NCBI GenBank assembly: GCA_964017235.1
Contig: OZ024929.1
Coordinates: forward strand, 23,619,464 to 23,683,463
Length of the DNA stretch: 64,000 nucleotides
Origin: Sabellastarte sp. h YS-2021
Lineage: Eukaryota > Annelida > Polychaeta > Sabellida > Sabellidae
Direction: 5' to 3'
Shown here: positions 33,096-64,000 of the stretch, one piece after another
Layout: each line of letters starts with the position of its first letter
Position numbering within the stretch: position 1 is the first letter of the stretch
Translations under genes and position numbers: made by a program
The notes under the pieces: generated by a model
Told to the model about the DNA's origin: nothing
The model's input: only the letters and a program-made list of their open reading frames with translations
The model's database searches: none

Positions 33096-33109
33096 TTCCT
33101 TAAGAAATA

Positions 33110-34508
33110 CATAGAATGTCCAAAATACATATATTGGCAGTGCAGGTATCGAGGGGGTGATCATATGGCAAATCAGTCCAAAACCCCCCTTAAAGTTCAA
33201 TCTGGCTCAAATTTTTACAGGAAACTCCGTTTATATCAGACCTTCATAATGTGTTGGCTCGACTTACTCAGGAAACCAATTAAAAATGTCAATTTTCCGG
33301 GGTGTGGGGCCAGGCTCAGCCCCCCTCAAATTGGGAAATATCAGGTATATCCTAATACAGCCAATCTGAAGCCCTTATTTAATTTTGCACATATTTTAAC
33401 AATAATTGAGGATATATTAGGTGCATTTGGAGCATTACATCTCTGAATATAAATTATTTCACCCATATATTGCTGTAAAAATGGTCAAAAATACATGTAA
33501 ATTATACCAAACCAGTACCAAATGTTGGTCTATAATGCTGAAATTTGACCAGAATATCATGTGACACATGCTATATCTGACTGAACCGGTTTTAGAATTA
33601 CATCTGATATAACAGTGCTTAAAGTTTGGCAATATTGGCTCCAGCTGGCCCAAAATTTGTTTTTGGTTGGCAGCATTAAGATATACTTAAATTGTGCCCA
33701 GTAAGACAAATCTAAGGCTGAAAACCATATTGTTTGCTAAAGTTGGCACGACTAAATGATATTCACAAGAATATTCCTTAAGAAATACATAGCATGTCCA
33801 AAATACATGTATTGAACTGGTTTTAGAATTACATCTGATATAACTGCTTAAAGTTGGCAATATTGGCTCCAGCTGGCCCAAAATTCGCTTCTGGTGGGCC
33901 GTATTAAGATACACTTAAGTTGGCGCCACTAAATAAGATTTCACAAGAATATTCCTTAAGAAATACATAGCATGTCCAAAATACATGTATTGGTAGTGCA
34001 GGTATCGATGGGGTGATCATATGGCAAATCAGTCCAAAACCCCCCTTAAAGGTCATCAATCTGGCTCAGACTTTCACAGGAAACTCCGTTTATATCAGCC
34101 ATTCATACTGTGTTGGCTTGACTTACTCAGGAAACCAATTAAAAATGTCAATTTTCTGGGGTGTGGGGCCTGGCTCAGCCCCACTCAAATTGGGAAATAT
34201 CAGGTATATCCTAATACAGCCAATCTGAAACCCTTATTTAATTTTGCACATATTTTAACAATAATTGAGGATATATTAGGTGCATTTGGAGCATTACATC
34301 TCTGAACATAAATTATTTCATATATTGCCTTAAAAATGGTCAAAAATACATGCAAATTACACCAAACCAGTACCAAATGTTGGTCTATAATGCTGAAATT
34401 TGACCAGAAGATCATGTGGCACATGCTAAATTTGACCGAGCTGGTTTTAGAATTACATCTGATATAAGAGTGCTTAAAGTTTGGCAATATTGGCTCCAGC
34501 TGGCCCAC
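33110..34508 (+). repeat. R3 repeat units (about 0.7-0.85 kb), two plus a partial
   Basis: Unit 1 runs from about 33110 to 33790, a partial copy covers about 33770-33990, and unit 2 runs from 33960 to 34508. Marks are TAGTGCAGGTATCGATGGGG, TGATCATATGGCAAATCAGT, GGGGTGTGGGGCCAGGCTCA and AATTGAGGATATATTAGGTG. Open frames in this region recur from unit to unit and are not evidence of a gene. Confidence 0.8.
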
Positions 34509-35294
34509 AATCTTCCTGAGTGTCCAGGCACTCGGGGGAGGGGGGACGGGTCAGTCCCTCTGGCCCTCCTCTTAGTCTTGGTCGGGTTCCAGGCTGAGGG
34601 TCTTTTCTAGGAAATTACTATATCCCTGGTGATGTCCTGATTAAGTTCAAAATCATTGGGGGTTATTTGGAAGTGCCAATGGCGGGAGTTTTCTCATGAA
34701 TATTCATGGGGTTAAGTAGAGGTTAGCTCTAGAGAATTGGGTCCTAGTTTCTCATTGGCTGGGGTTAAGGAGTCTGGGGTCTTTTGCACATGTGTGGTCA
34801 TTGAAATTTTGGAGCCAGAACTGTTAAGACTGAAATATTTTGTTGGCTCCTATATTGTTTGAATTTGATTATTTATGAAACTTTTATTTTCTGAGTTTTG
34901 CATTACTTTAATCATTTGATTATCACTTGTTTTTTTTTGAGAAACATTTCTGTGCTATAACATGCGGAGATTGAATACTGGACTAAATGCACACATTCTC
35001 AATGGATTTGTGATTAACGGATTCTGCTTTGCTAGTCTTGAATCTGGTGGATTCTTGACTATCTGTGGTGTGCTGTTTAGACAACCTTAAGCCTGTTTTT
35101 TCTACCAGATGAGGGACGGTCTAACCTATGTTATTCTTGCAATGCCATATTGGCTGAGATTTGATATATAATTTGCCAATTTTATACCACAAGTTAAAGC
35201 AGGCAAAAAGTTAGTATATGCAGAACACGGTTCCTCTTTATATTTCCAGATAATTAGGACATTGACTATATATCAATTAAAAACAGGGCTTGAC

Positions 35295-40589: not shown

Positions 40590-40990
40590 TTCGCTTCTGG
40601 TGGGCTGCATTAAGATATACTTAAATTTCGCCCAATAAGACAAATCTAAGGCTGAAAACCATATTGTTTGTTTTTAGTGGCGCCACTAAATGAGATTTCA
40701 CAAGAATATTCCTTAAGAAATACATAGCATGTCCAAAATACATGTATGGGTAGTGCAGGTATCAAGGGGGTGATCATATGATAAATCAGTCCAAAACTCC
40801 CCTTAAAGTTCATCAATCTGGCTCAGATCTTCACAGGAAACTCGGTTTATATCAGACATTCATACTGTATTGGCTTGACTTACTCAAGAAATCAATTAAA
40901 AATTTCAATTTTCCAGGGTGTGGGGCCAGGCTCAGCCCCCCACAAATTGGTAAATATCAGGTGTATCCTAATACAGCCAATCTGAAGCCC
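40590..40990 (+). repeat. R3 unit continued after DIRS-C
   Basis: It resumes the R3 unit broken at 34508 and starts the next (TAGTGCAGGTATCAAGGGGG at about 40751). It stops within CCAATCTGAAGCCCTT at about 40990, where another insert begins. Confidence 0.75.
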
Positions 40991-43119
40991 TTTTCAGTCG
41001 AATCTTGGATTCGAGTTATGTACTGGGTTCTGATTGTTATTTAAAAAACGCCACTTTATCCTCTAAAAATTAAAGATATATGTAATATCTATACACATAT
41101 ATTAAATATTAGAGGTACTGTATATACTCTGTTATTTTGTTTTTTATTTAATATTTTCTTTAATGTGCAGTTTATGAAATGAATACACTGTCTAGTCTTT
41201 GTCTAGCTTCTTGCAAAGTACCAGGATGTAGAAAATCTTCTGCAAAACACTAGAGAATAGTCATAAAACATTAACATGATGTTTTTACTTAGGATGAATA
41301 CTAACATAACAGTGACTACAGTAGGCAACATATTTTCTTTGATTAGATTTTGTTTAATATCAAGTAGAGTTTCCATCATATTTCAACCATGGTAATATTA
41401 AGCAGAACCTTTACAAATGTCATTTTCGGAGTTGAACCAGTAGAACCAAAATAGTGACACTAGTAATGGCCCTAGCTCTAATACAAATGTATCTTTTACA
41501 ACAGACAAGGCAATAAATCAATCTTTGTTATGTCGCAACATGTAAATTTTTGCAGTGGCAAGTGCATGTGAAGATATAAATTGTCTTCTGTTTTGTGCAA
41601 AGTTAAGGCATTTTCCAAGTTACGGTTTGAAGCATTAGACAGCCCCAAAATCTGTCTTTCATCAGCCATGTTAAGACAACTTAAGTACAATTTAAGTACT
41701 AATTTAAACGGTGGTGGTCTAATATTCACTTGCACCATTGTGTAGGTAATCTTTGAATGTGGAAATGGAAGTAGAACATATGCCCATGAATGCCAAGGCA
41801 AGCAACCTTATGACAATACATGATGAAATGGGGAAAACTAACATTTGACTTATGATGTAATCTTCGAACAAGGCCTTCACATTATTGGCTTACTGATCAT
41901 ACAATATTTATAAATTCTGTTTTATTGAATAATTTAAAGTCAATTATATTATTCATGCAAGTTAACCATATAGAAATAAAAGACAACTTTACCTCTTGTA
42001 TCAGAAATGTACTTATATTTTTGATATTGAGAACTATGATTTATAGCTCACCCATCATGTCTCCTATAATCTTATTTTACAAATTTGAAGCTTACTTCAC
42101 AACCTTCAACTTTTCACCTGCAATGTCTCATCCTTAATAATTCTTGATCTCTGATTTTTTCTTGTTCGATATTCCTTGCAATCTGTTTAATGTGTCTTGG
42201 AATCTGGGGTCCAGTCCATCCATACTTCAAACCAGTAACTGTCTTTAGATAGGGATTAAACGCTATAGAAATACTATTAGAGTTAGAATTACCTAGTGTT
42301 GATTACTCTGCAAATAGACGCAACAGAAATTGAGCCAACTATATGTCTTGAAAATGTTATGTATACATACAAATCTTAACTAATTATATGTAACATGTGT
42401 CAACAAAATCCCATGCATTCAGCATCAATTTCTATCATAATTGAGGCAGAAATTAAAACACATGATTCAAATAATTTTGGCTCATAGTAAATCAAAAGTT
42501 AGCATGGAACAGTGTTGTCTGGTGTATTAATCACAGACACTCTCAATATAAATTTGGTATTAAAGTAAAGGGGCATGAATTAGAAAATATATGGTATATG
42601 TAATGATCAGTATTTATCTTAATTTATAGGTCACTGTTTAAAATGTATAATGAAAAAGCCATGCATGGGGATTATATGTTTTTATGATGAGATACAGTTT
42701 ATTTTGGATAACAAAAAAGTATTCATCTGGTGGCTCTACACATGAAAGCATGTGGACAGTAACAGTTTCTTAGATGGCAGACACCACATGACTAATTTAG
42801 TAAATTTGTTTGGGTTCTGCAAATCTATTTAGAATTTCTCCCTCAGAAAAGGTTATTGCCTTCTCTGTTAGGATTTTCATTTGTAAATCTATCATAAAAA
42901 CACATTTTAACAGTCTTGGTAAATGACATTATTCTATTCAAAAACACTATTAAACATCTTGAAAGTTATTGGGTACTAATGAGCTCTCTGCTTGTTACCC
43001 TTGTGGTATATGTATATTGTTATCTAAACACAATAAATTGATATCTGTTATTTTGGGTTTAACTCAACTTTAATCTAAAGATTCGACTTTGTGGTTGTCT
43101 GAAAGACAGCCACTATTCC
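40991..43119. mobile_element. Orphan 2.1 kb insertion in an R3 unit
   Basis: R3 is broken at CTGAAGCCCTT and resumes with TTTAATTTTGCACATG at about 43120. The insert's ends share AGTCGAATCTT...GATT in inverted form (about 40998-41015 and 43078-43093), suggesting short terminal inverted repeats. Inside it I recognise no gene or known repeat. A minus-strand open frame of 101 codons (41496-41801) has no recognisable domain. Confidence 0.45.
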
Positions 43120-45467: not shown

Positions 45468-46255
45468 CCCAGTAAACATTTGAAACATTTTAAAATGCGT
45501 TAAACATTTGCAAAATGTTTTAAAACCTATTCAAACTTATCTTACAGTTTTCTAAATATTTTCAAGTAAACATTTACAGTGTAATGGTTTAAAACATTTT
45601 TTAACCATTTTATATACAAATGTTTTTTACTTAAAACATTTATTAAATGTTTATAACATAACCCAAGAAGCTAGATTTGACTAGAAACATTTCTTAAACA
45701 TTTATAAAATAGCTAATGAAGTAAAAGTTATGCTGGAAATGTTTTTCAAAAATTCATTATGAAATGGTTTATAAACAATACACATAAAATGTTTAAAAAA
45801 CATTGTGTATCAAATGTTTTAAAAACATTCTGTCAAAAACGTGTTTTAAACCCATATTTTCAAAATGCTTATTAAACCTTCACCTTCAAACATGTCCACA
45901 TAAAGATGACGGTGAGCAATAATAGGGGATTTTAGAGGACTTTTTCAAAAATCGTCCTAAAACTGAGAATTGAATTTGGGCACAATTTATTAGCCACTAT
46001 CTTACAATTCTAGACATAAAAATAATATTTTCATTAGTGAGAAACCTTAAAAATGTATTGAATTTGACCTCTGACCACATTATTATTCAGACATTAATAT
46101 GTTCATTTATAATATTTTTTTAAACATTTATCATTAAACGTTTAATAAACAGTATGCATAAAATGTTTTAAAAACATTTTATTATAAATGGTTTTTGTAC
46201 CCATCATTTTTTAACCTTTTCCAAACATTTGCAAAACTTAAAAATATTTACTGGG
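45468..46255. mobile_element. MITE-like element, CCCAGTAAACATTT / AAATATTTACTGGG ends
   Basis: 788 bp with inverted ends and an interior full of AAACATTT/AAATGTTT and GTTTTAAAACATT motifs on both strands, so the whole can fold on itself. Target duplication unclear. No protein. Confidence 0.65.
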
Positions 46256-46877
46256 TTATCTTAATTTTGTAGCTAGCATTAAACGTCAATTTACTGGTAA
46301 GGTGTCTGTAATGTATATAATATCTGTAAAAAAGAAAGAGAATGTCAGAAGTAAACACCCTGAATGTAATTTTTTGCAATCAATGTAGCAAATCACAGGT
46401 TTTAGAAAAGTTTAAAAAAAAATCACACAAATTGTTGCTTCACTTTCAAAAAAGGAATATTTTAAGATAATGCAATTATAAAATGGTTCAAAATCATCCC
46501 TTTTGTAGATCCTACCAACACAGAATAATGATAATATAAAATTTAAAAAAATTCCATTTATATGAAAAGGAAAAGTCTGACTAAATGTCATGTTTGGGTC
46601 AAGTTATGAAGTATGTTGATTTGAATTTTCATAATTATATATTACAAACTTGTATAATTAAACTAATGTAAATGACTTTCAGTACAAAGTTACATGTAAG
46701 GCAAAATAGTAATTTTGGTGGTCTTACATTATGTTAAATTTAATCATTTAAATACATATTGTGAAATTTTTGACTTGACGTTTCAGCAGGAAATTTCCTT
46801 GCTGCAAAGGCATTACAATGTATTCACAAATTACTTTTACTTTTCATTAATGTATTTACTTGTAAATGTGAACATAA

Positions 46878-47044
46878 AATCTAATTATTCAAGCAGGAGC
46901 ACTGCTTTGTTATAGTTTTTTTAAATTTCAGAGGTCCTTTTTTCGTCCTTGTACCCCCTTCCTGCCAGGGGCATATTTTAAGTGGCTGCTCCTCATCTAT
47001 GATTATTTCAGTGTCTTTGACATCACCATTCCTTTGAAGAGCAT
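46878..47044 (-). pseudogene. Exon-like open stretch in the CAACGTTG element
   Basis: On the minus strand an acceptor-like TTTTATTTCATTTCAG precedes an open frame with RNGDVKDTEIIIDEEQPLKI and CPWQEGGTRTKKGPLKF. A GGGGTACAAGG at about 46968 could be a donor, otherwise the frame closes near 46878. No domain is recognised. It may be an exon of the element's own gene. Confidence 0.3.
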
Positions 47045-47169
47045 CTGAAATGAAATAAAATAAGTTTAGAGTAAATTTAATTTTGTTGAAGCGTGGTGTA
47101 TTTTCTTCTTACAATATGTAAGAATATATAAATTATTCTGCAATAATGTCTTATGCCAGTAAGTTAATA

Positions 47170-47662
47170 ACTAATTCTAATTCTAATTGGACTTTTATAG
47201 CGCTTAATCTCTGTCAAAAGACAGACTCTAAGGCGCATCATACAAAAACATAGTTCAATAATCGTAAAACCAGAGACATTGCAGGGGTTGGCACCGCAGA
47301 GAAAGAAAGAGAATGGAAAATTTAGGGTGGGTATGCTTTTCCAAAGAGGTATGACTTCAACTTTGACCTGAAAGAGGCAAGTGAGTTTGCAGAGCGGACC
47401 ACATCAGGAAGGTCATTCCAAATCATAGGTGCATCATATGCAAAACTGAGTCCAAAATGCTTTCGAGACTTGAAAACCGAAGCAAAGTGGGGAACCTCAA
47501 GAAATATGCCATCAGATTGACTTCGACGAGTGTTATATGCACTATGTCTGGGTATCAAAAAGGGATCAAAATACTTGGGGTTACCACTGTGTAGGAACTT
47601 GTATACAAGCACGGCAGTCTTAAAGATAGAACCTAAAAACCTAAAACTGCATGCATTAAAAT
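47170..47662 (-). pseudogene. 5'-truncated LINE (CR1/L2/RTE-X-like): RT C-terminus and 3' tail
   Basis: The minus-strand frame 47696-47322 (to 47662 within the LINE) reads KTAVLVYKFLHSGNPKYFDP, YNTRRSQSDGIFLEVP, and WNDLPDVVRSANSLASFRSK. That is the conserved C-terminal domain after the reverse transcriptase in many CR1/L2-type LINEs. A ~130-bp 3' UTR follows with a CTTAGAGTCTGTC...GACAGAGATTAAGCGC hairpin, and a short-repeat tail (AATTAG)n at about 47188-47170. Such microsatellite tails are usual for these clades. Sequence past the MITE (48055 to about 48115) may continue it. The rest of the LINE is absent. Confidence 0.75.
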
Positions 47663-48054
47663 TAGGGGTGTGACGAGTACAAATAATCCGGGTCAATTAC
47701 TCGCGGACAAAAACTCAACTCGACATCAAGCACTCGCGAAGTTTAGTATCCACCATTACAGGAAACAACATCCAATATGGCGGCTCCCGTAAACGACAAA
47801 AATATAAAGATAAAAGCTTTGAATCGCTTGAATTAGCTGATGTCATCATATAATATACTTAATATTATGTTAGAAATTGTGGATTATGCGATTTAATGCT
47901 AGCAAGGTATGTTATTTATTTTTTATTTCCTAATAAACATAACCGCTATAATAGGTTGTTGTATATCCACGAGTAGTCGACCCTTAAAATTGGGCTCGAA
48001 TTTTTGTGAAATTGGCCTCGCTCGGCGAGTGTCGACTGCTCGGTCGCACCCCTA
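47663..48054. mobile_element. hAT-like MITE with 8-bp target duplication
   Basis: Perfect 8-bp direct repeats ATTAAAAT (47655-47662 and 48055-48062) flank ends TAGGGGTGTGACGAG and, in complement, TAGGGGTGCGACCGAG. Eight-base duplications and such ends fit the hAT superfamily. 392 bp, non-coding. It sits inside the LINE fragment. Confidence 0.85.
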
Positions 48055-48115
48055 ATTAAAATTGCAAGATCTTGTAAAAAGTAGGCACTAAAGTTGGAGC
48101 ACATCACTAATACAA

Positions 48116-48344
48116 GTCAGCTTACTGAACAGATTTACAAGGACCTGAATCATGGGGCCATATTCATAAAAACTGATAGCTTAGGCCAGTTATAGGGCCC
48201 TATTTATTGCATATGTTATTACTTTTATTACCATCCAGGAAACCTCAGGTTATGGTAAGTGGTCACAATATTTAATAATTCATACTGTTACAAAAATACT
48301 CAACAGATCTTACCTAAAATAAACTTTACTTTAACTATTGGAAA
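48116..48344. other. Non-coding interior of the CAACGTTG element
   Basis: Nothing recognised apart from a donor-like GTAAGATCTG on the minus strand near 48315-48306. Confidence 0.4.
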
Positions 48345-48524
48345 CTATCTCCAGTTGCTATCTGGCTGTCTTCTACTCTGCAGGGTCTTCTGAGGAATTT
48401 TGTAAAATGGTGGCCGACACAGTCTCTTTTCTTCTGTGTTTTCCCACATCGATGGTACAGTTCTGTCATCCTCAGTGCCACCCTCAGTCCACGCTGCACA
48501 GGACCAGTTAAAATTTTGGCTCAT
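48345..48524 (-). pseudogene. Small minus-strand frame, W-x-VP-x-W-x-C-PP type
   Basis: A 59-codon frame starts at ATG (48524-48522) and reads SCAAWTEGGTEDDRTVPSMW, then ENTEEKRLCRPPFYKIPQ, to a TAG. The spacing of W, VP, W and C-x-PP resembles a short N-terminal module seen in proteins of some fish and invertebrate DNA transposons (from memory, not searched). With the stretch at 46878 it may be the first exon of a decayed gene of this element. Confidence 0.3.
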
Positions 48525-49654
48525 ATCTGAAGTTCAGTTTTAATTGTTAAATTATTAATCTGAACTTAATGGTACACAGACTTTAGAAATCATGCAAGTT
48601 ATTATTGATGATGCATACATTGTTAAAGTAATGATCAGATGGTTTCTAAGAACTGGGATCAGCAGTGAAAAACCATCCCATTTGACTAATGCATGATCAG
48701 ATATAAAATCACAAATTTTGACATCAACAATAGCATCCTGATCACTGGGGATAGAATGAGTGACTTATGTGACCATGCAAAAATAAAGGTTTAGCTACCG
48801 TCAGTACTGCAATGTTGTTCCAACGTCAAAACAACAACATTGTAACAACGTTAAAATATCAACGTTGGATCAACGTTAGTACTGCGTTGTATTAGTGTAC
48901 ATTAATAAGCTTTCCAAAATGTCTACTTCATAAATTTTATACACCAGAAACTAATCAAAGCTAAAAATAAATATTGCTGCATTGACTGACTGGATGGTAC
49001 TATAATTGTAATAATACATATTAAAAATGCTTGCAGATTTTAACTTATAAAGATTGGGCAGTACAGCAATGTTGTTCCAACGTTAAAACAACAACGTTGT
49101 AGCAATGTTATAATATGAACGTTGGATCAACATAATTTTTGCGTTGCATGAACGTAAATATTTCAAAATGATCTTTTCTTTGAACAAAATAGACAAAATT
49201 TAAACATTGAATGTGAAATAGTCATTTACAGTCATCATAGACCATAAAAACACTCATATAAAATTATGCACAAGGTGAACATTGAAATTTCATTCTGTTC
49301 CACTGCACCAGATTGGTACAAAATAATAGCTGGGAAACATCAGTCCAAGTTTTAGAAGAATAATCAAACATGTGCACCAATAAATTACACTAAAATATGC
49401 TATATATGTCTGATACATAGAAAACTATACTAATATACACCGATTGAGAACATACAGAGTGATATTTTAAGATACATATTCAAACTAACCTTAACTGATT
49501 TCTATCCAAAATGGCCACAGGAAGTAAACATCACCATGTGACACATGCTATTCTGATCCCCAACAGTTGTGATAAGGTTGTTTCATAGTTGACGACGTCG
49601 GCAACGTATTTACAACCATAAAACAACGTCAGACGAACGTTGTGTGTCTGCTGG
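48525..49654. repeat. Right subterminal region of the CAACGTTG element
   Basis: CAACGTT/AACGTTG motifs cluster at 48810-48880, 49075-49150 and 49600-49645. TACTGCAATGTTGTTCC (48804) and TACAGCAATGTTGTTCC (49062) start two related blocks ~258 bp apart. No gene is seen. Confidence 0.6.
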
Positions 49655-49929
49655 GGTCATCTTGCTATTTTGAATTGTCCTGTTTTAGTACTTTATCTTT
49701 ACATACATTTTCTTTCTCTTAGATGGTATTTTCTCCACTTAAACATTAGTTGGACCTTTATATAAATGACACTGCACTGAAAGTACAGGTGTCTTTGTAC
49801 TTTTTTACTACTTCTATATGTCATGGTGTTGAAAACTATTTCCCCAGGCTGTGTGGTACGGGCATCTCCGATGCTATTTTTTGACAGAAAGATTATGTTG
49901 GTGTGCTATTGTAAGAATTGTGAAATATA

Positions 49930-51500
49930 TTGGATTACTGTCATGGCGTCTCCTGGCCAAAGAAGGGGGTCTTGTGGTCACATAATGGCAGGTTTTGATG
50001 CACATGATAAATGCACCAGATAAAGGACTTGGTACTAATCCGTGTATAGTGTGTGGAGCAATTTGATCGATTTGTAATGGATTTACACCAGCACAGTATG
50101 ATATTTTGGCTATACCTAAGTAGCGAATATGAAAAGACAGGTATTCTCGTCTTTCCTAAAGAAGTAACTATCTTGGGCTCTACAAGGGATCTTGTGCAGA
50201 AGAAAGTGCATCTTGAGGTCTCAGCACATGCACAGCCGGTAGCTAGTAATGGTACCCAGGAGTTTATTTCTGGAGATGACTTTGATAAACTAAGTTCTCA
50301 ACTAGGCAAACTATTTGCAAGGTTTGAACTTTGAAGCACTACTGAGTGTGGGAACATTTTCACTACACCTTAAATGCCAGTCATGGTCATGTCTGGTCAG
50401 GGTACTCATTCATTTCAACCTACCTATTTTGATATCAAGATGTCTGGTATGGTTTCTCAACACAGTTCTTCTACCGGTATGTCCGGTAGTACTGGTTCAA
50501 ATGTTCAATCTTCATTTCAATTCTGACAGGGATGATGAACCTTCATTTGGTGTGGATATCCCAGTTTCCAGTGAATCGAAGAAAGGGAGTTATCGGAGTT
50601 CAAAGAAAAGTGTGACCTTAATGAAGACATGAACCATAGGGAGGCAGATCAGTACGTGCCTTTCTTGGTTGGAATTTTATTCCTGATTTTGAACTGGACA
50701 CTAGTGATACAGATAGCTCCAATAACCCATGGAAAGGGAAACATTCCAAGAAAGCGGTAAAGTGTCAATGAAAATATTGGCTGATGACTGGTTATGTCAG
50801 GAAGTGAAATGGCTTCATTGTGCAGCAGCAGAGGGCTACCCTTCCAGGTCTCAGGATGCCAGGGTCTTAAAACAGGCCAGACACCATACACCAAAAGCCA
50901 AACAAATAGTATCGGCAGCGTTGCCCAAGAATGGATGGACCTCACCAATCAGGCAGGAGAATGTTTGGCCAGACAGTTAATGAAGCAAAGTTGTCAGACT
51001 GTCTGCTTATCCACCTGGACCCCCATCAAGGCCCATCCCTCAGGAAACATTGCACCAGTGAAATCCAGGACCATATGTCTTAAAACATCAACCTTTTGCA
51101 GGAGTCTTTGTTGAAGGGCAAGGAACCCAAAGAAATTGCAGATGCTGTGAAGGACTCGAAGGATCTGGCAGCTGTTCACCAAGGAGTATCTACCGCCTTG
51201 GGTACCTCCCTCCAGCATTTAGCAGATAGCTTGTTTGTCCAGTTGGGTAACTTTGTTCTACTTTAGATGAGACTCGTATCTGAATCATGTCAAGAATGGG
51301 TTGAAATCGGAAACCTGCAACCAACTCCCCAATGCACCTCTGTTTCATGGTGGGTTGTTCCCAATGCAGTACTAGCCACAGCAAAACAGGATATCACCAA
51401 GTTTAGTTCTGTCTTAGCTGCTCAGGGGCCCAGTCCGGGTGCACCTCTGTATGCTGGCAAAAAGGCAGTTACAGGCTCATAGAAGGATGCTCATATACTT
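49930..51500 (+). pseudogene. DIRS-D gag-like region
   Basis: A Cys/His-rich module (SCGHIMAGFDAHDKC, about 49968-50015) corresponds to the start of the DIRS-B gag. Decayed low-identity sequence follows. Fossil, broken. Confidence 0.5.
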
Positions 51501-52129
51501 TTGCATAAAACCAACAACCCTGGAGCCAGTTCTCTAGACAGGGGCAAAGGTCGTGTCTGTGGTCGTGGGGTTTCAGTACCCTGTTCTTCACCAAACAGGC
51601 CAATGACAGCAAGCAGAGTAAATGATAATTACCATTTAGTAGACCCCATAGACAGACAGTGTTGTTTAGTTTCGCATCTAAATTATGTAAGAAAGACTGT
51701 AAGTTTCAATGTTGTCAGTCCTGTACATTTTATAACAGACACCAGGCTGTGCCAAAAGAGAGACTTAGGTCCTGCATTGGAAAAAAAATCAATAAAGTTT
51801 ATGAAAGGTGTTTTGCAAGTCATTGTCCTTCTGTTCCTCTTGTCATAAATGTCCACAATATTGCAGAAAAACATCCTGTGGAAAGCCGTCTGCAAAACTA
51901 TTGGCAGGTATGGCTCTCATGGGGTTCAAATCCAAGGGTAGTGTCCATCTTACAGGAGGGGAACAACCTACCCTTTAAGATGACGCCACCTGATACGTTC
52001 ACCTCTAGTGGTCAGTGGATATGCAAATCCTCTCAGGAACAGTTACCTGAATGAGGCATTGCAATCCCAGTTATGGAAAGGGGCAGTGGATAGGGTCGTA
52101 GTTCAATCTTTACTAGCTTTTTACAACCA

Positions 52130-53637
52130 GTTGTTCCTAGTTCCAAAGCCCGAAACCGGTGAAGACCGATTTTAGACCTAAGCACCTTGAACTTGTTCCT
52201 GAAAGTGGACACCTTTAAAATGGACACACCAGAGACCATCAAACTGTCCTTGCAGCAAGGAGAATGGCCAATTACCTGGACTTTAGCGATGCTTACTTTC
52301 ACATTCCCATAAGTCCCAGGTCAAGGACGTTTCTAAGGTTATTCCTAAAATTTTAAACCTATCAGTTTGCACCCCTACCTAGCGATGGCTCCATTGGAGT
52401 TTATGAAGGTTGCAAAGGAAATGAAACTTATGGCCCAGGCAAGGGGTATATGAATCCATCAGTACCTAGACGACTGGTTAGTCAGAGCCCCATGTCAGGA
52501 AATTTGCTTTCAAAATACCCAGATCCTTTTGGGCCTGTGCCAAGAGCTGAGTTGGGTAGTGAATCTGACCAAGTCATACCCAATACCTCAACAAGTATTC
52601 AACTTTGTAGGTTATTGTTTCGACTTCTCTATCGGCCTGATGAAGTCCACTCAGGAGAAGTGGACTTAATAGGACTCCTGACAGCCACAGTGAAGCAAGT
52701 CCTGTTGGGCCGTCTTCAAATGAGGCCTCTTTAGTGGCACCTGAAAAAGGATTGGCATTTGCTAGAGGTTTTGGAGATACCATCCCTCTGCCCAGATCAC
52801 TCCATCCTCATCTGGATTGGTGGCTGGACAAGGTCAATATTTTACAAGGTCAGCCTCTACACCCTCTTTGTCATGGTCTGCAGTTATTTACAGATGCATC
52901 AAACTAAGGTTGGGGTGCACACCTAGGGGACTGCACCGCAAACGGCCTGTGGTTGTACATAAATTTCCAATATTTAAAAGAAGTCCTACTGGCCCTCAAG
53001 GAATTCGAGCCTTTGTGCTGGGGCCAGACTATTTTAGTGGCAATGGACAACACCACAGTTTTTTCCTACATAAACAAGGAGGGGATATGAGATCAGGCTG
53101 TCATGGTGCAACCTCGGGCAAATAGTGCTGACGGCCAGGCACATACCAGGTCGCCTAAATGTGATAGTGGACAAGTTGTCCAGACATTGACAGACGATCC
53201 AGATGGAGTCGTTCCTCTTGTAGGAAGTGTTTGACCACTTGTGTTCAAGATGGCACACACCCCAGGTGTATTTGTTTGGGGTTCAACAACAAACTTCCCA
53301 AGTTTGTGTCTCTGGTACTAGATCAGACGGTTTGAAAGGTGAACACATTTAGTCTTCAATAGGAGGTCTGGATATTTATGCCTTTCCTCCAGAGTCTCTT
53401 TTTGGCCAGGTGGTCTCCAAGGTGGAAGACCAGGGGTGCCGACGAATGATACTGATTGCCCCAGGTTAGCCCAACATGCTCTTGTTCTGGGATCTGGTCA
53501 AATTGTTCATTCAAGTACCACTCCTGCTGCCACAGCTGGGGAACCAACTGTCACAATGCTTCAGCGAGTGTCCCCACAGGGATCTCCTCAACATGAACCT
53601 CCATGCTTAGCTCCTCGAGCCACAAGCATAAAAAACA
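52130..53637 (+). pseudogene. DIRS-D reverse transcriptase and RNase H region
   Basis: Pieces of the RT palm are recognisable near 52285-52330 and 52460-52490 by comparison with DIRS-B. RNase H pieces are seen at about 52880-53100 (LQLFTDAS-like, and VAMDNTTVFSYINKE). Broken. Confidence 0.6.
52593..53637 (+). repeat. ~1.04 kb direct repeat, left copy (upstream of the LINE)
   Basis: It runs from AAGTATTCAACTTTG to CATAAAAAACA and matches 60081-61117 along its whole length, with a few per cent differences by eye. On its left the DIRS-D RT sequence continues without a break. On its right it meets the LINE 5' end. Confidence 0.9.
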
Positions 53638-54418
53638 TGATAAAACATTCTTTATAAAGTTATTATTTTGAAATAGTAAATTGACATTATTTTTTAATAT
53701 AGCTATATAACAGTGGGTGAGACTTTGCAGATTACTAGTCTTTTGTAGGATGGATTAATAGCTTTTTTAAAAAAAGAATTAATTACAATGGCTATTAGAT
53801 TTAATTTAACATTAGCTGATAAAGTAGTCTAATGCAGTTTTATTATTTATTTACCTTATCAGGTTAATTTAACATTATGTTGATAGTCTGCCGTAGTCTT
53901 ATTAGTTTGGATAAAATAGTCTGTCTTAGTCTTATCATTTTTGAATAATATAATCTTCACTGGTTTTTTCTTTTGTGTATGTGCTAATGCTAATGTTCTA
54001 GCTTTTAAACTTATTATGCATCTAGTTGTTAAGGCATTGGAAATGATGTAGTTTATTACATGCAAGTATTGGCTAAGCCTTAATTCTTTATACTCTGATC
54101 AAATATCATATAACCCAAATAGAATAATCAATTGATTGAAACTCGGCACCTAACTCCATTGATTGTAAAAGTTAGTTATATCAGGTATTGTGTTTCTTTT
54201 GTCATGTTTTTATTGCCATACATGTGCACTCCTAATTTTTTACACAATTTATTTACAGTGACATTATTACTATGTACTCCTATATTAACACCTAAATGTG
54301 ATTTTGAAGAATATTTGCTTATCCACCTTAAATACAGAGTGGCCTTTTTGTATAATTTATGTTTAGCATTTATTGATGATTTCTGTGTTACTTCTCAGAG
54401 AATCCCAGGATATTTTTA

Positions 54419-55270
54419 ATGTCAGCTGGTGAAGAACTTGTAGTATTATCAGCGAATTGTCAGGGTCTTCAAAACAAAAATAAAAGACGAGATGTAATTG
54501 ATTATTTAAGTAACACTAAAGTGGGCATTATATATGTTTACAAGATACCCATTGGACATGAAAAGATGAAAACACTGTAAGGTCAATGTGGAAAGGGAAA
54601 TGTATTTTAAACGGTGAATCCTCGAATTCACAAGGTGTTGCAGTTTTGCTAAACCCTAATTTTGAATACAACATAATGTCAGTTTCTAAAGATATTGATG
54701 GCAATATGATAGTACGTAACCTAAATATTGGAGATATATCTATAAAATTGCTAAACATATATGCTCCAATTAAAATTCACCAGAATTTGTTAGTCATATT
54801 AGAGATATTACTGAATCAAATATCCAAACTTATATACTTTTATGTGGGGATTTGAACCTTGTACTTGACCCTCTACTAGACTGTGACCATTATAAGCATA
54901 TCAATAATCCTGAATCCAGATACCTTCTCTTAGAAATCATGAATAGTTTTAATTTAAGGGACACTTTCCATTTATTTCACTCTTTGGTGAGGAGATACAC
55001 TTGGAGAAGGGAAAATCCAGTCCGTCAGGCCAGATTAGACTATTTCTTAGCATCACATACCATGTGTGATATCATAACAAGTTTTGTATCAATCCTAGTT
55101 ATAGAAGTGACCACTCAAGTATACAAATTAAAATACTACTTAACAAATTTTAGCGAGGAAAGGGACTCTGGAAATTTAACTGTAGTCTCTTGAAAGAGCA
55201 GGAATATATTGATTTAGTTAATTCTATAATTCAGGAAGAAAAATATAAATATGCTCTCCCAGTATACAAC
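54419..55270 (+). pseudogene. LINE endonuclease domain (APE type)
   Basis: It starts at ATG 54419 with ELVVLSANCQGLQNKNKRRD, the usual start of these endonucleases. The frame closes near 54580 and continues in another at 54586 (SQGVAVLLNPNFEYN), then shifts again near 54850 (CGDLNLVLDP, the Asp/Asn metal-site region). RRYTWRRENPVRQARLDYFL (about 54993-55052) is the conserved late block. The enzyme nicks target DNA for target-primed reverse transcription. The domain is inactive because of two frameshifts and an internal stop. Confidence 0.8.
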
Positions 55271-56934
55271 TTAAGGGGCTATCAACGCAACAACGTATAT
55301 TTAGTTAGTGTAATCCACGCTAGGGGGTTTGCATAGAAAGCATATTTGTTGCTATGCATGGACTTATTTGCAATGTTTACAAATGTGTTCAACTACGTCA
55401 CACAGCAAGGCTAACATGTTTGCGCCTGTCTAAATATCTATATATTACATACAATCTACATACAAGATATAATATAATGTGTAATCTACATACAAGATAA
55501 CACACATATTTCAGCTTGCTTTACAAAGCTGCAGTGAGAGGACAGGTTATATTTTTTATACTGTGCAATATAACAGCTACAGAGTGAATAATGAGGCAAT
55601 TTATAACTGTAAACTGAAAGCCACGTGTACTTATTTACCTTCAAAGGACAAGGGATTTTTTTACACGTAATTGGACTGTTTAGCTTGCATCAGTTATATT
55701 CTCAAGATTTGTTTCCTATTTTTCATTTATTTTATAATTTCACTACCAAAGTTTCTCTTCAAGATACATCTACCATTAATTTCAAAAATAAATTTATAAA
55801 TCAATACGCTCTCCACAGCCATAAGTACTGGCAGATATTGCTCCCTTAGCAACAGAGATACACCAGTCTATCAAGATATAAAAAAGTACTTAGAAGTTAT
55901 ATATGAGGACACTGTGGATGCCACAGTCGTAGAAATACATACAGGGGGGGACAGCGATTCGCCCATAAAAACAGCAAAATGAAGTTTCTTGAGAACAAAT
56001 ATGCAGTGTAGTTTTATAAAAGTTATCAGAATGAAAAGAGGTTCCTCAAACTGTAAAATGATAGTAGCATCATAAAATATATTTTGTGATAAGTACAAAT
56101 ACAACCATAGAACTTGTACCATGGCAATAAGATTAGAGCTGTTGGAAAGTGGACAGCATTTCGCCGATTATTTTATACTGTTCCCAAAAAAGTTACAAAG
56201 CCTGTTAAACACTTTGTAAACAATATTTAAAGCTAAAGAGTAATTCTTCTCATTGTATTTTAGCACTTAATGAAGTTATAAATAGTATTTATATTGACCC
56301 CAGACACAGTTTAGAGAACATACAGCTCTTTGCATCAGTCAGATACCGTTTGTTAGGTATATTTCTCACTGACATATAAACTTTTTTATTCATCTTTATA
56401 ATCCTGCATGCTGTCAGTTCTAAAATCTTAGAAAAGTATCAAGATATGTTGCACACTTTTCTATGCTATAAGGCTCTTTCAGTATCAACACAAATATTAG
56501 TTTTAAATGAGGTACAATAGAATCTGGCGAATCGCTGTCCCCTGCGAATTGCTGTCCTCCCCTGTAAGTATTGTTTTGAATGAATTACATTTTAAAAAAA
56601 TACTTCCACAAGCATTTAACTAACAAGTATGTAACAGTGATTTAAAGCAGTAGACTTTGTGTATTAAAAATTACAATAATATAAAAATGCCACTTTTAAT
56701 GTAAAAACGAATTCATTCAAAAGTTACAGAAAATTACCTGCACATACATACGTTGAACATAAGTATTGATCTTGTCTTGCATGCATTTTTTGGTCACGTT
56801 TATAAAGCATGTCTCTTTTTGAGGTGACCAAAGTTAGACCAACATTTTTATTGCACCATTTTATTAAAATGGCTGTCTGTGAGGAAAGGTTTCTGCACTA
56901 CGTGAAATATGCTGTTACGTTGATAGCCCCTTAA
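55271..56934. mobile_element. TTAA-flanked inverted-repeat element (Kolobok/piggyBac-like), in the LINE
   Basis: Ends TTAA-GGGGCTATCAACGCAACA and, in complement, TTAA-GGGGCTATCAACGTAACA form a 16-18 bp inverted repeat with TTAA on both sides. LINE sequence is continuous across the insert. TTAA targets are used by piggyBac and Kolobok; ends starting GGGG suit Kolobok better. No transposase is seen in 1.66 kb, so it is non-autonomous or internally replaced. Confidence 0.75.
55941..56565. mobile_element. 625-bp MITE nested in the TTAA element
   Basis: The left end ACAGGGGGGGACAGCGATTC and the right end, in complement, ACAGGGGAGGACAGCAATTC are inverted repeats. A second GGACAGCGATTCGCC copy lies just inside the right end (about 56526-56543). 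The flanks TA/TA fit a Tc1/mariner-type target. Non-coding. Confidence 0.75.
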
Positions 56935-58970
56935 GATACTTGGACATAGCTCCCAATGATGATGTTAATTTTACTGTCAATGATGGACAATTTTTGGAAT
57001 TGCTATTATTATGAATAAGGGGTGAAACAATTAAGTTTGCATCTTACCGTAAAAAGGAAGAGAATAAACATGAAAATAGACTGAAATATGAGATCAATTT
57101 TCTTGAAAATATTGGCAATATGGCCTTAGCAGAAATTATAGACATAAAAAAATCAGAATTAGAAAATATTAGACAAAAATCTACAATTGGTAGTGCTATT
57201 CGTGCCAGAACTCAATGGCTTAATGAAGGTGAAAAACCCTCAAAGTTTTTCTGCTCTTTGGAAAAGTATAACTATACTGAAAAAACAATAAAAAGTATTC
57301 AGCTACAAGATGGTCAACGCATTACTGACCAGAAAAAAATACTGGAAGAGATTAAAAATTTCTATTCATCACTCTTTTCTGAAAAAAAAACACAAGATCA
57401 AAATTTAGATACTTTATTTAAAGAAAAACATGTAAGACAACTGTCCTTATCTGAATCAAAAATTGTAGAAGAGGAGTTAACACTTGATGAAATTAAAGCA
57501 GATGAAAAATAATAAATGTCCTGGGGTAGATGGCTTTCCAGCTGAGTTTTTTCAAATATTTTGGGGACATATTAAATATTTTGTTCTCAGAGGATTAAAT
57601 TATGCATATAATAGTGGTGAAATGACAGTTTTATTAAGAACTTGCATCATAAGCTGTCTCCCTAAAGGAAATAAGCCCCGTGAAATTTTGAAGAATTGGA
57701 GGCCAATCTCTTTACTATCAGTCGTATACAAAATAGCCTCTTCAGCAATTGCAAACCGTTTGAAAAAAGTACTCGACATCTTAATATCTAAATCACAAAG
57801 TGGTTTTATAAGTGGGAGGTTCATTGGAGAGAATACAAGACTTGTCTATGATATGCATTATGTAGAGAAAAACAATTCACAATGTCTCCTCATGCTTGTT
57901 GATTTTCAAAAGGCATTTGACTGTTTCATGGAACTTCTTGTCAAATGTGCTCAACATTTATAAATTTGGGACTAGATTTTGCAAATGGATTAGTGTTTTC
58001 AACAAAAATATAAAGGGATCTGTGATATAATCAGGATTTCTGTCAAAGCCATTTAACATAGAGAGGGGATGCAGACAAGGCGACCCCATAGCTGCTTATG
58101 TGTTCTTACTATGTGCACAAATTCTTCTTCTCATGGTTGATAATAACAACAGTATTGCTGGAATTTCAATAAAGAAGCACAGTTATAATATCACACAGTT
58201 CGCTGATGATACTACAATATTTCTGCATGGAAGTTGGGACTCTCTAATTGCAACACTGAACACGTTAGAAATAGTTGGCTCTCTATCTGGACTCAAAGTG
58301 AATACAGATAAAACCAAAATAATATGGTTGGGGAAAAACATTCTCAGGATATGTATGAAACCCCACAGAAGCTTGACTGGGGTACAACTGAATTTAACTT
58401 GCTGGGGTTTACAATTTTCGGTTGATCTGAATAAAATACCTGCAATGAATTACAGTTTGATAATCAAATTACCTGAAGCCCAGGTATTAATAGAACTGAC
58501 ATACGTGAGGATATTACATTAACAAAATAGAAAAAATTCTGATCCGGTGGAGAAGAAGGAATTTGACACCACATGGGAAAATTACAGTTCTTAAAACATT
58601 TGTTTTAAGCAGTTTAAATCATATATTTGCTTCTCTTCCTTCTCCAGATAAACAAACAATTAGCAGTTTAAATAAATTAATGTATTCCTTTCTATGGGAT
58701 AATAAACCTAGTAAGATTAGTTGCAATCAAATTACAAATGATTTTTTTCAATGGAGGACTAAAAATGATAGATTTGGACAATTTTGTTAGGGCTCAGAAG
58801 CTTGCATGGGTGAAACGTTTCATTCTATCTCCCGATTCTCCATGGAGTAAACTATTTTCATCCACAGTAAGCCCAGATAAATTCTATTTGATGGGATCTT
58901 TGTGGCCTAAAATTTTGGCAAATACCCTGTCAAATCCATTTTGGAAAGAAGTTTATTGGTTGGGGTAAAT
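56935..58970 (+). pseudogene. LINE reverse transcriptase domain
   Basis: The region before the palm (SAIRARTQWLNEGEKPSKFF, about 57193-57255) and NNKCPGVDGFPAEFFQIF (about 57507-57560) lead to RPISLLSVVYKIASSAIANR (about 57700-57760), SQSGFISGRFIGENTRLVYD, LMLVDFQKAFD (about 57886-57920) and the catalytic FADDTTIFLHG (about 58199-58233). Thumb and connecting sequence run to 58970. Frames change near 57500, 57965, 58525 and 58760, so at least four breaks lie in this part. The block from 57120 to 57512 is fully open. Confidence 0.85.
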
Positions 58971-59099
58971 TTCTTGACAAAAAACACTTCGTCCCACTGA
59001 AGCCTTATCAAGTCCTATGTGGTACAACTCAGGGATATCCACTGAACCACTTTTCTTTTCACATTGGTACAATGCAGGGATATGTGTCCCATTGGACAT

Positions 59100-59867
59100 A
59101 ATGTAAAACGCAAGATTGATGGAGCTAGCTGATATTCAACACCATTATAACTTAAAGCAATTTTTTAGAATACCTTCGAATTCAAAGATGTTTAAAACAA
59201 TTTTTTGGTAAATGCGATATACATAATTTTTCAATTGATAGACCAATTTTTCCTCCATATTTGAAAACACTGCTTAATCATAATAAAGGAAGTCGGCATT
59301 TTTATGAAATTTTAAAAGATCACTATGATAATAAAAAAATGAAGAGTAAATGGACACAAATTCTTAATACTGATATCAGTGAAAAAGGTTGGGACATGAT
59401 TTGTAAGATCTGTTTTAAAACCTTAAAATGAAATGACTTCATTTGGTTCCAAAACAGAATTATCCAAAGAATTTTAGGTACAAGGGCTTATCTTAATCAA
59501 ATTTGTATAAGTAGTACCTTTACCTGTGTGTTTTGTGAAATGTCTGTAGAGACTATATGCCACATTTTTACTTCCTGTCCAGTGGTCATACAATTTTGGA
59601 ATAACTTAAAATTGTGGCTCCAGCAGTTCTTCAACATGTACCTAGATCTTAATCGCAAGATTATTATCTTTGGTACACTTAAAAAAAGTAGACTTTTTCC
59701 CCAGAAATATTACTATTATTGTTGCAAATAAGTACATATTTACATGTTCCAGAAATTCAAAAATACTTGACTTATTTGGTTTTCAAAATTTTCTAAGAAG
59801 TGTATACATTGATCAAGAATATATAGCCAAAACCAATAACCAGTTAGAACAGTTCTTAGCAACTTGA
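59100..59867 (+). pseudogene. LINE C-terminal region with Cys/His motif
   Basis: CVFCEMSVETICHIFTSCP (about 59528-59585) is the C-x2-C...H-x4-C motif found after the RT in L1/Tx1-type LINEs. The end of the protein is seen as GFQNFLRSVYIDQEYIAKTN to a stop near 59867, in a shifted frame. A 3' UTR of ~210 bp with AATAAA and a short A run follows. Confidence 0.75.
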
Positions 59868-60080
59868 TCAATACTTGAGAGAATAAAAGGGAGCTGAAAG
59901 TATCAAAGTACTTTGTAGTTAAATTGAAAATTAATTATGTACTTTAGATACTTGTAGTTTATGAATCAATAGTTATGCAAAGCTGGCTTCATGTTACTGT
60001 ATTTTGAGAAATGCTTTTTTCTATTTTTGTGTGCACATGTATATTTGTTTTTCTCTTGTATATGAAAATGAATAAAAAAA

Positions 60081-61117
60081 AAGTATTCAGCTTTGTAGGT
60101 TATTGTTTCGACTTCTCTATCAGTCTGGTGAAGTCCACTCAGGAGAAGTGGACTTAATAGGACTCCTGACGGTCACAGTGAAACAAGTCCTGTTGGGCCA
60201 TCTTCAAATGAGGCCTCTTCAGTGGCACCTGAAAAAGGATTGGCATTTGATAGAGGTTATGGAGATACCATCCCTCTGCCCAGATCACTCCATCCTCATC
60301 TGGATTGGTGGCTGGACAAGGTCAATATTTTACAAGGTCAGCCTTTACACCCTCTTTGTTATGGTCTGCAGTTATTTACAGATGCATCAAACGAAGGTTG
60401 GGGTGCACACCTAGGGGATTGCACCGCAAACGGCCTATGGTTGTACATAAATTTCCAATATTTAAAAGAAGTCCTACTAGCCCTCAAGGAGTTCAGGCCT
60501 TTGTGCTGGGGCCAGACTATTTTAGTGGCAATGGACAACACCACAGTTTTTTCCTACATAAACAAGGAGGGGATATGAGATCAGGCTGTCATGGTGCAAC
60601 CTCGGGCAAATAGTGCTGACGGCCAGGCACATACCAGGTCGCCTAAATGTGATAGTGGACAAGTTGTCCAGACATCGACAGATGATCCAAATGTAGTTGT
60701 AGGAAGTGTTTGACCACTTGTGTTCAAGATGACACACACCCCAGGTGTAGCTGTTTGAGGTTCAACAACAAACTTCCCAAATTTGTGTCTCTGGTACTAG
60801 ATCAGACGGCTTGAAAAGTGAACACATTTAGTCTTCAATAGGAGGGTCTGGATATTTATGCCTTTCCTCCAGCGTCTCTTTTTGGCCAGGTGGTCTCCAA
60901 GGTGGAAGACCAGGGGTGCCGACGAATGATACTGATTGCCCCAGGTTAGCTCAACATGCCCTTGTTCTGGGATCTGGTCAAATTGTTCATTCAAGTACCA
61001 CTCCTGCTGCCACAGCTGGGGAACCAACTGTCACAATCGTTCAGCGAGTGTCCCCACAGGGATCTCCTCAACATGAACCTCCATGCTTGGCTCCTTGAGC
61101 CACAAGCATAAAAAACA
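60081..61117 (+). repeat. ~1.04 kb direct repeat, right copy (downstream of the LINE)
   Basis: It begins AAGTATTCAGCTTTG immediately after the LINE A run and ends at CATAAAAAACA, after which DIRS-D continues into its recombinase part without a break. It covers the RNase H part and the stretch after it. It is a copy of 52593-53637. Confidence 0.9.
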
Positions 61118-61119
61118 GG

Positions 61120-62060
61120 GGTTCTCTCAGGAAGTGACAAGAATTGAGGCTCCTCCAAAACTTTCAACCAGAGGAGTCTGTGAGTCGAAGTGGTCTGTGT
61201 TTGTAAAATGGTGTGAGTTCAACCAGGTGGACTTCAGGTCACCTTTTATAAAACAGATTGCAGATTTCCTCCTGTTCTTGTTTCAGGAGAAGCATCTTCA
61301 ACCTAGCACTATTGGTGACTATAAAACAGCTGTAACAGATACAATTGGGAATGAGAAGGTCAATATCAGCAAAGGTGGGAATTTGACTTGCTTGTTGGAC
61401 AGTTTTCCTCATTATAAACCTAATGGAGGGTGTCCCTTGTTAGAATCTTTCCTTGGTTTTACATCAATTGACCAAACCTACTTTTCAGCCTCTTAGGAAA
61501 GCTTCTCTGAATCATGTGGCATTGAATACTGTGTTCCTTCTGGCCCTAGGATCGGGCAAGAGGAGTGAGATTCATGCTTGATTGCATTGGAATATCTTGC
61601 ATCAGGAGGATTGGTCAAAAGTCTCCTTCTTCCCTTCCCCCAGCTTCTTGTCCAAAAATCAGCTGGCTAGGGAGGAACCTGCTTGTGTTGCATCAGTGAT
61701 TATCCCAGCTCTGGCTCCTAAACTTGATAAATCTCTTAAGGAGGATAGGACCCTTTGACCGGTAAGGCCATTGGTTTATTATTTGGACACAATCAAGAAC
61801 ATCCAACAGGGTAAGGATTTTGTTTTTGTCTCCTTTAAGAAGAATTTGAGTATGGGCATTGTCCCTGCTACTATCGCTTGGATTTTGCAGACGGTGTTTT
61901 TGTGCCATCAGCTTTCGGATGACAATGCTCAACTTCTGCATCAGGTGAAGGCTCATGACGTTAGAACCTTTGCAGTCTCCAAGGCCGTCCATGGAGGTGT
62001 GCCTTTGGACCAGATCCTTTAAAGCCTGTCCTTGGAAGTCACACAATACCTTCACCCAGT
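61120..62060 (+). pseudogene. DIRS-D tyrosine recombinase region
   Basis: WCEFNQVDFRSPFIKQIADF and FQEKHLQPSTIGDYKTAVTD (about 61210-61340), LGSGKRSEIH-like sequence (about 61545-61575) and VKAHDVRTFAVSKAVHGG (about 61945-61998) correspond to the DIRS-B recombinase. Broken at several places. Confidence 0.75.
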
Positions 62061-62439
62061 TTTAATTGAAGAATGTGGCTTGTACTGATTCAGAATTGTA
62101 CCATTTAGGGTTAGTTGTGGCGGCTGAGCAGATCCGCGAGTAGCTGGACCCTATATGTAGGTACATGCTGTATAGGTTGTTATCTGAAGAAGGGACCCTT
62201 TCTTTTTGCTTCAACCGCTTTCTTCCTAGCAGGTTGTCTTTGGTATAAAGGTCAGCTGCAAGAAAGATATTCTTATTTGGCTTCCATGGGAATCCTTATG
62301 GACTGAACTCTCATCCTCCCTCTCCTGCAAGTATCTGGTTCAGGCAAAGAATAAAGGGGGTGCAGAATCCAAGAGTAGGGCACCCTGACACCAGTAGTCC
62401 CTCTTTACCTTTAGGGCCTGGATAGACTTGATCGGAGTT

Positions 62440-62745
62440 CTTGATGTCCCTGGTCTTAGCTACCCTCCATCCACCAGGTAGTTATTCTGCATTTGTCCAC
62501 TAGGTAAGATGTATCAATGCAATAAAATGGATAAATTAAGTAAATTAAATTTGTATCAGTTAATACCTTACCTAGTGGAGAAGGGGATTCCCACCCAAAC
62601 TTCCACGCAATATACAGCTTTATCTGATGAAAAAGACACTACTGGTCGCGGCCAAAGCCCAGGACATTTTTTCTAATGTTGGTAAGACCGGCAGCGTGCT
62701 GGGCATATGCATTGTCCACTAGGTAAGGTATAAACTTACTTATTT
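62440..62745 (+). repeat. DIRS-D right terminal region (internal complementary region + terminal repeat)
   Basis: TTGTCCACTAGGTAAGATG (about 62492-62510), its inverted form TTACCTAGTGGA (about 62566-62577), and a third copy TTGTCCACTAGGTAAGGTA (about 62713-62731) repeat the layout of the DIRS-A right end (288, 373, 592) and that of DIRS-B. Confidence 0.8.
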
Positions 62746-64000
62746 ATTTACTTATTAATTTTTCCAACTCCCAACAGTGACAAACTAGTTGACAAACTAG
62801 TGACAAACAGAAGCCTAGAGGTTTTCACTGTACAGTAAATCAATTGTAACTGGAAAACTATTGCAGTTACAGTATTTGTTTAAATGTTTTCTAACTATTT
62901 TTTTACACCATAACAGCTACTTTTGTACTTTACTTAAGAATACCAATTGCACTGCACAACTTTTGTGTCTTTTTCTTCTTTCACTTTTACTCTGAAACGC
63001 ATGCACAGTTAACTGACACAGAGCACTGATTGCTTGTTTTCTGGTAGGATGACAACAACACCTGTTTTTTAAATGTTAAACTGTCAACAACATATTTTAA
63101 TAAACAACATTCTGTTTTTTTTTATTAATATGAATAAGATTTAACTATTATTTTATTTGAATTTAATACTTCAAAAACTTTAAAACGGGTTAAACCCATT
63201 AAAGTACTTTAAACACAGGTTTTCAACATATGAACGAACACACTTTGCTATAAATGTGATGGCACATTGTACCACTTTGTATCAAAACACAAAACATTTT
63301 GGGGGGCTTTATATATTTATACAAAATACTTTGTGAAGGAATCCACTTGCATAAAAACAGTAGATTCCTTTTTAAAAGTATATTAAATAACAAAAGTTTT
63401 GATTGTATTGTTTTTGCATTACACTGCACTTGTAAAGTGAATCTGATAGAGGGTTTGAAACCCTCGCTCTCCCAGTTTCTTTGTAACAGTGACATGAAAA
63501 AGGATGAGTAAAAATATTGAAGAAGAAAAACATTCAGGCAAATCATTGTGGTATATGAACAAGGTTATTTGTAGATAATAAATTTATATTTTAGACAGCA
63601 AATACTGGTGATTAGCATAGAAAATCGGTCCTGACATATTTTCAACACTAAATCTAAGGTAGATTTCTGACAAGAAAAAGAAGTCATGTTTCATGAGAAT
63701 AATCAACACTAAATCTTGTTTAGGTTTTCTACAGTAAACAGTAGTTATGTTTTAGACTAGAAATCTTGGTGATGTGGGGTTGAAAATCATGATCTGAAAA
63801 CTGATGTACAATTTTTCAACTATAAATTCATGTTTGATTACTAACAGAAAAGGTGGTCATATTTTGGAATGAAAAACATATTGAATGCGAGAAAATATAT
63901 GACATGAATATGTTAATTGTGTACTTTCCCCAAAATTGGTGAACTTTAAAAAAAGACTGATACAGCTAAATAATTTTAATTCAGCCTTCTTAGTTTGTAC
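62746..64000. other. AT-rich stretch, nothing firmly recognised
   Basis: No gene is seen on either strand. 63590-63880 hints at a decayed ~65-75 bp repeat (TTTTCAACACTAAATC-, TCTTGGTGAT- and GAAAATC-type words recurring). Confidence 0.4.

Follow-up and report, generated by a model that had tools for sequence, protein, structure and literature searches.

We analysed 64,000 nucleotides of the sabellid annelid Sabellastarte sp. h YS-2021 (assembly GCA_964017235.1, contig OZ024929.1, forward-strand positions 23,619,464 to 23,683,463), referred to here as the window, position 1 being its first letter. A decayed DIRS-like element in this window harbors a long interspersed nuclear element (LINE), and the LINE is flanked on either side by one copy of a direct repeat of about 1,040 bp. 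An earlier sequence-only reading had proposed that this repeat is a giant target-site duplication. The features in question are the following.

52593..53637, plus strand: left copy of the presumed duplicated target, within the decayed DIRS-like element, in its RNase H region; it meets the LINE without a gap at 53637/53638 and shares 95.3% identity with the right copy
53638..60080, plus strand: 5'-truncated LINE with endonuclease, reverse transcriptase and zf-RVT matches (Pfam; genome relatives), an A-run at its 3' end and broken reading frames
60081..61117, plus strand: right copy of the presumed duplicated target; 95.3% identical to the left copy, flush with the LINE

Blastn aligned 52590-53637 with 60078-61117 at 1000 identities in 1,049 columns (95.3%, 10 gap columns), confirming the repeat where the sequence-only reading had placed it. 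The 1,049 columns include a 3-base overlap with the A-run; without this overlap the left copy measures 1,045 bp (52593-53637) and the right copy 1,037 bp (60081-61117). Elsewhere in the window, a single match to the right copy was obtained at an E-value of 1e-5, a piece of 40 bp at 22566-22605 (92.5%).

Both inner edges of the repeat coincide to the base with the ends of the LINE, as had been noted from the letters alone. At the left joint (slashes mark the joints), the repeat passes flush into the LINE (...ATAAAAAACA/tgataaaac); the last base of the left copy is followed directly by the LINE, the opening bases of the right copy do not lie in between, and target and LINE do not overlap. At the right joint, the A-run of the LINE (aatgaataaaaaaa) stands immediately 5' of the right copy, again flush (...aataaaaaaa/AAGTATTC). 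The outer edges read ...cctcaac/AAGTATTC on the left and ...ATAAAAAACA/ggggttctc on the right, and beyond them the two copies adjoin different DIRS-like sequence.

Origin of the two copies

The whole 1.79-Gb assembly was searched with the right copy, and 40 of 6,203 first-look candidates were scored. The two copies are each other's best match (95%), followed by locus L041 at 78%; over comparable length, nothing among the 40 was closer than the partner copy. Since the next match drops to 78%, the DIRS-like element had probably aged and diverged from its relatives before the duplication arose. The abundance of DIRS-like relatives among the candidates would lend itself to a scheme in which each flank stems from a different DIRS-like copy and a recombination at or through the LINE brought the two together. 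Set against this are the step from 95% to 78% and the distances to 10 relatives, from each of which the two copies are nearly equidistant, as is expected of copies of one sequence (the left copy is nearer to 10/10, by 0.003-0.020). Such a recombination is thus extremely improbable, and the search likewise rejects two unrelated DIRS-like copies as flanks. The two copies have a common origin. When the 38 differences between them were polarized with the same 10 relatives, 22 were assigned to the right copy and 12 to the left, 4 remaining ambiguous; we read no meaning into the split of 22 versus 12 (binomial P 0.12).

The DIRS-like relatives also speak to the outer edges. A single alignment that extends 20 bp or more to either side crosses the left outer edge (52593) in 21/28 of them, for example L041 onto 51239-53629, L048 onto 51942-53629 and L050 onto 51437-53633, and the right outer edge (61117) in 25/28, for example L041 onto 60157-61356 and L043 onto 60157-62451. 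In these counts L058 and L066 overlap and stand for one place, and the relatives are paralogous DIRS-like elements, not an orthologous empty site. The outer edges are thus native in most relatives compared. Because the relatives' sequence runs across both edges, the element most likely had one copy before the insertion, the LINE together with one extra copy being the novelty. The continuation of the DIRS-like sequence outward past both copies had been described before and holds. DIRS elements, which are tyrosine-recombinase retrotransposons, would be recognised by RT-RNase H with a tyrosine recombinase after it and by their characteristic termini. The assignment to DIRS, made in the sequence-only reading, was not confirmed, since RT_RNaseH matches only below the curated Pfam cut-off (E 3.2e-04); two frames at 61077-61493 and 52357-52731 gave no Pfam match, and comparison of 46000-52592 with 61118-64000 yielded only a 14-bp match, which is at chance level. 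Transduction of 3' or 5' sequence by the LINE was considered and rejected, as both copies run outward into native DIRS-like sequence.

Age of the duplication and of the LINE

Across 1,036 aligned sites the copies differ by 38 substitutions (30 transitions, 8 transversions) plus indels, close to the few per cent estimated by eye in the sequence-only reading. The Kimura two-parameter distance is 0.0378 (standard error 0.006), which corresponds to 0.0189 per site per copy. The terminal branch of the LINE, computed in IQ-TREE under GTR+G, is 0.0193 in its 5' region (7 relatives) and 0.0248 in its 3' region (16 relatives, three of them more distant); under HKY the values are 0.0190 and 0.0243. Private sites of the LINE number 45/2507 and 33/1548 in the two regions (0.018 and 0.021). 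As changes in the source before insertion may be included, the LINE divergence is an upper bound for the insertion age. By most measures, then, the duplication is about as old as the insertion and not detectably older.

The LINE and its relatives

In Pfam, the LINE matches RVT_1 (9.3e-14 and 1.9e-10), zf-RVT (1e-06) and, below the curated cut-off, Exo_endo_phos (E 3.2e-04); judged by these endonuclease and reverse transcriptase domains it is an APE-type LINE (non-LTR retrotransposon). From its features it may belong to the L1/Tx1 clade. Relatives in the genome are 71-96% identical, and beyond the counterpart of 53638 their sequence extends further upstream, for at least 1.1 kb in L069 (the C8 copy) and 1.5 kb in L008. 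Consequently, the window LINE is 5'-truncated: position 53638, previously given as the LINE 5' end, is the edge of this copy but not the full 5' end of the family. In the longer relatives L002, L003, L006, L007/L069 and L008, repeated 5' units lie upstream of this point, and their arrangement varies. The LINE is itself interrupted:

55275..56930 (about), strand not assigned: DNA-transposon-like insert in the LINE, 1.66 kb, with terminal inverted repeats, at a TTAA-containing site; absent in 7/7 relatives (L002-L008)

The terminal inverted repeats of the insert read GGGGCTATCAACG... and it sits at a CTTAAG/TTAA site; it resembles a piggyBac-like or non-autonomous DNA transposon.

We also analyzed the flanking duplications of the family. 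Among 17 relatives with a 5' edge that could be tested, 6 carry a short duplication of about 9-15 bp (L014, L016, L017, L025, L027 and L038; those of L025 and L027 with one mismatch, that of L017 with a few extra bases ahead of the LINE), 11 carry none and 0 carry a long one in the flank examined, which comprised only 15 bases in L018 and 153 in L035. Several of the 11 edges without duplication look like later insertions and not like true ends. The 5' locus was compared with the 3' locus at six places, of which two belong to the 17 as well, and no long flush duplication emerged, much of the 5' sequence there being LINE. Likewise, for three long copies the 3' flank was searched against the genome, and no second copy was found at the 5' side among the 40 scored of 6,913, 2,731 and 922 candidates; the search with 6,913 candidates was crowded by a high-copy repeat and disfavors a duplication only from about 0.9 kb upward. 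A LINE family that makes long duplications constitutively is therefore not supported. The length of about 1,040 bp also lies outside the usual 5-30 bp, a range that is typical of LINE duplications and does not define them.

The left-flank context of the six readable relatives is CAAG, CAAG, TAAG, CAAG, TAAG and AAAAT. YAAG is hence present in 5/6, and the CAAG of the window appears to resemble the family in this respect.

A probable single insertion event

We favor, at a probability of roughly 0.86, one LINE insertion event as the source of the duplication, wherever the second end came from, because the copies are each other's best match, the outer edges are continuous in most relatives compared, the divergences of repeat and LINE closely match, and the window shares the CAAG/YAAG context. 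The giant target-site duplication suggested by the sequence-only reading is supported on the same grounds. An APE-type LINE would have entered the old, decayed DIRS-like element by target-primed reverse transcription. A first nick in the bottom strand at CAAG, about 52592/52593, would be the place where the A-tail of the LINE RNA primes; a first-strand nick shared by the family (CTT, bottom strand), combined with priming by the A-tail, would give the CAAG/YAAG context. First-strand synthesis would have ended early, causing the 5' truncation, the cDNA end would be attached to an end of the top strand lying about 1,040 bp further downstream, and fill-in of the stretch between would leave a copy on both sides of the LINE. 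The two presumed cleavage sites are:

52590..52597, minus strand: putative first-strand nick in CAAG (YAAG in 5/6 readable relatives, AAAAT in the sixth); the exact base within C-A-A-G is open, since the A-run can supply the As
61116..61119, plus strand: putative second end (top strand), located about 1.04 kb further downstream than the first, at the right-hand edge of the repeat (...AAAACA/GGGG)

Within this single event, the second end probably lay on the same molecule, as a nick or break some distance away. Another source would be the sister chromatid: synthesis would begin at 52592/52593 and the cDNA would be joined to a sister-chromatid break about 1 kb downstream, giving a LINE-bridged tandem duplication. 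Such bridging, a sub-case of one LINE event, has been proposed for a somatic L1 event with a 22.6-Mb duplication in a tumor (PMC7058536, Figure 7b legend), and the evidence from the repeat, the genome search, the edges, the ages and the nick fits it equally well. It requires an extra break, however, and a spacing of 1 kb follows readily if one molecule is nicked or broken twice, as in the model given in PMC5223499; we hence regard bridging as rather unlikely. Both routes would end in the same sequence, from which they cannot be told apart.

Two further explanations dispense with the single event. Tandem duplications of about 1 kb occur, and one of 1.04 kb could have arisen first, the LINE entering later exactly at its junction. 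The divergence between the copies and the LINE age do not differ in order of magnitude, and 11/17 relatives are without a readable duplication, so a minority of duplication-free insertions is possible. Nevertheless, the LINE would have had to hit one exact base and leave no target duplication of its own, which the six readable relatives did make, and the ages of repeat and LINE would have to coincide as nearly as they do. For these reasons a duplication preceding the LINE is very unlikely, in line with the preference already expressed in the sequence-only reading.

The second is an assembly artefact, a false duplication, to which an analysis of assembled sequence is open. This is highly improbable, given that the copies differ at 38/1,036 sites plus indels, with derived changes on both, that both outer junctions are native, and that a false haplotype duplication is not expected to place a LINE precisely between its copies.

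Several observations weigh against the single insertion event. The arrangement is read from the assembled sequence. In 7/28 relatives the left outer edge, and in 3/28 the right one, is not crossed by any single alignment; there are gaps or nearby ends in these. With FastTree the LINE branches came out longer (0.025 and 0.033); on these values the repeat would be the slightly younger of the two, not the older. Substitutions are spread a little unevenly over the repeat (P about 0.03; the largest gap measures 180 bp), and there may have been some gene conversion between the copies, a process that would lower the apparent age of the repeat. As the readable relatives duplicate only about 9-15 bp, a duplication of about 1,040 bp is exceptional for the family. 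Finally, the nick context is drawn from six relatives only. When the 3' ends of 19 relatives are compared, the A-run is followed by T in 10 of them, by G in 8 and by C in 1 (with L029 better read as G), so that the G found in the window is frequent without being necessary.

Other repeats in the window

Apart from the repeat around the LINE, the window contains a 563-bp direct repeat of 93.6% identity (33094-33656 and 33950-34511, separated by a 293-bp spacer), with a further piece at 40678-40992. Overlapping sets of direct repeats at 4216-6142, 871-1504 and 25402-26405 resemble tandem arrays.

Comparison with known LINE duplications

Cutting and joining of the second strand is described as a poorly understood step of LINE integration (PMC6895275). 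The sequence-only reading had called kilobase LINE duplications rare, and this agrees with the literature, according to which they are a rare but known outcome in cultured cells (PMC5223499, PMC2666801). As reported in PMC5223499, L1 duplications longer than 100 bp never exceed 10% of the insertions recovered in HeLa cells. For duplications in cells deficient in nucleotide excision repair the same source gives a median of 1,495 bp (range 5 bp to 5.3 kb), against a median of 14 bp (range 2 bp to 1.6 kb) in complemented cells, and suggests for the large ones a nick or break on the same molecule. These insertions share with the window an L1 flanked by direct repeats in the kilobase range; they arose de novo, the long ones mostly in repair-deficient cells, whereas the insertion in the window is natural, decayed and inherited through the germline. 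Closest in size is a 1,228-bp target-site duplication in 1/25 insertions of ZfL2-2 in wild-type DT40 cells (PMC2666801), albeit of another LINE and in cell culture. The tumor duplication of PMC7058536 likewise has a single L1 event between duplicated segments, but it spans 22.6 Mb, is somatic and is explained by a sister-chromatid model. R9, a rotifer element of ribosomal DNA, has an exceptionally long target-site duplication for a LINE, as has the window; that of R9 is 126 bp long and the element is specific to ribosomal DNA, whereas among the relatives of the window LINE long duplications are not the rule (R9 as cited in PMC6895275).

In HeLa cells, truncated insertions are linked with radical alterations of the target, extremely long duplications included (PMC2912911), and on this account we count the 5' truncation of the window LINE in favor of the single event. 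The same paper describes these changes as regarded as peculiarities of HeLa cells. Our search for a natural germline kilobase LINE duplication, which covered titles and the openings of abstracts in a limited open-access literature, found none. Most likely, the window holds a natural, inherited instance of a known outcome and not a new mechanism.

A datable germline example in which repeat and LINE agree closely in age and the first nick resembles that of the family is a sign that such events occur and persist in nature, and comparing the age of a repeat with that of the LINE it encloses is a way to find more of them. It is tempting, though doubtful at present, to suppose that 5'-truncated LINE insertions in animal germlines regularly produce a minority of kilobase target-site duplications, which have escaped notice because only short ones are gathered in surveys (5-30 bp in the survey described in PMC2912911). 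If this were true, old LINEs with long flanking repeats would be a source of small segmental duplications, some of them bridged between sister chromatids.

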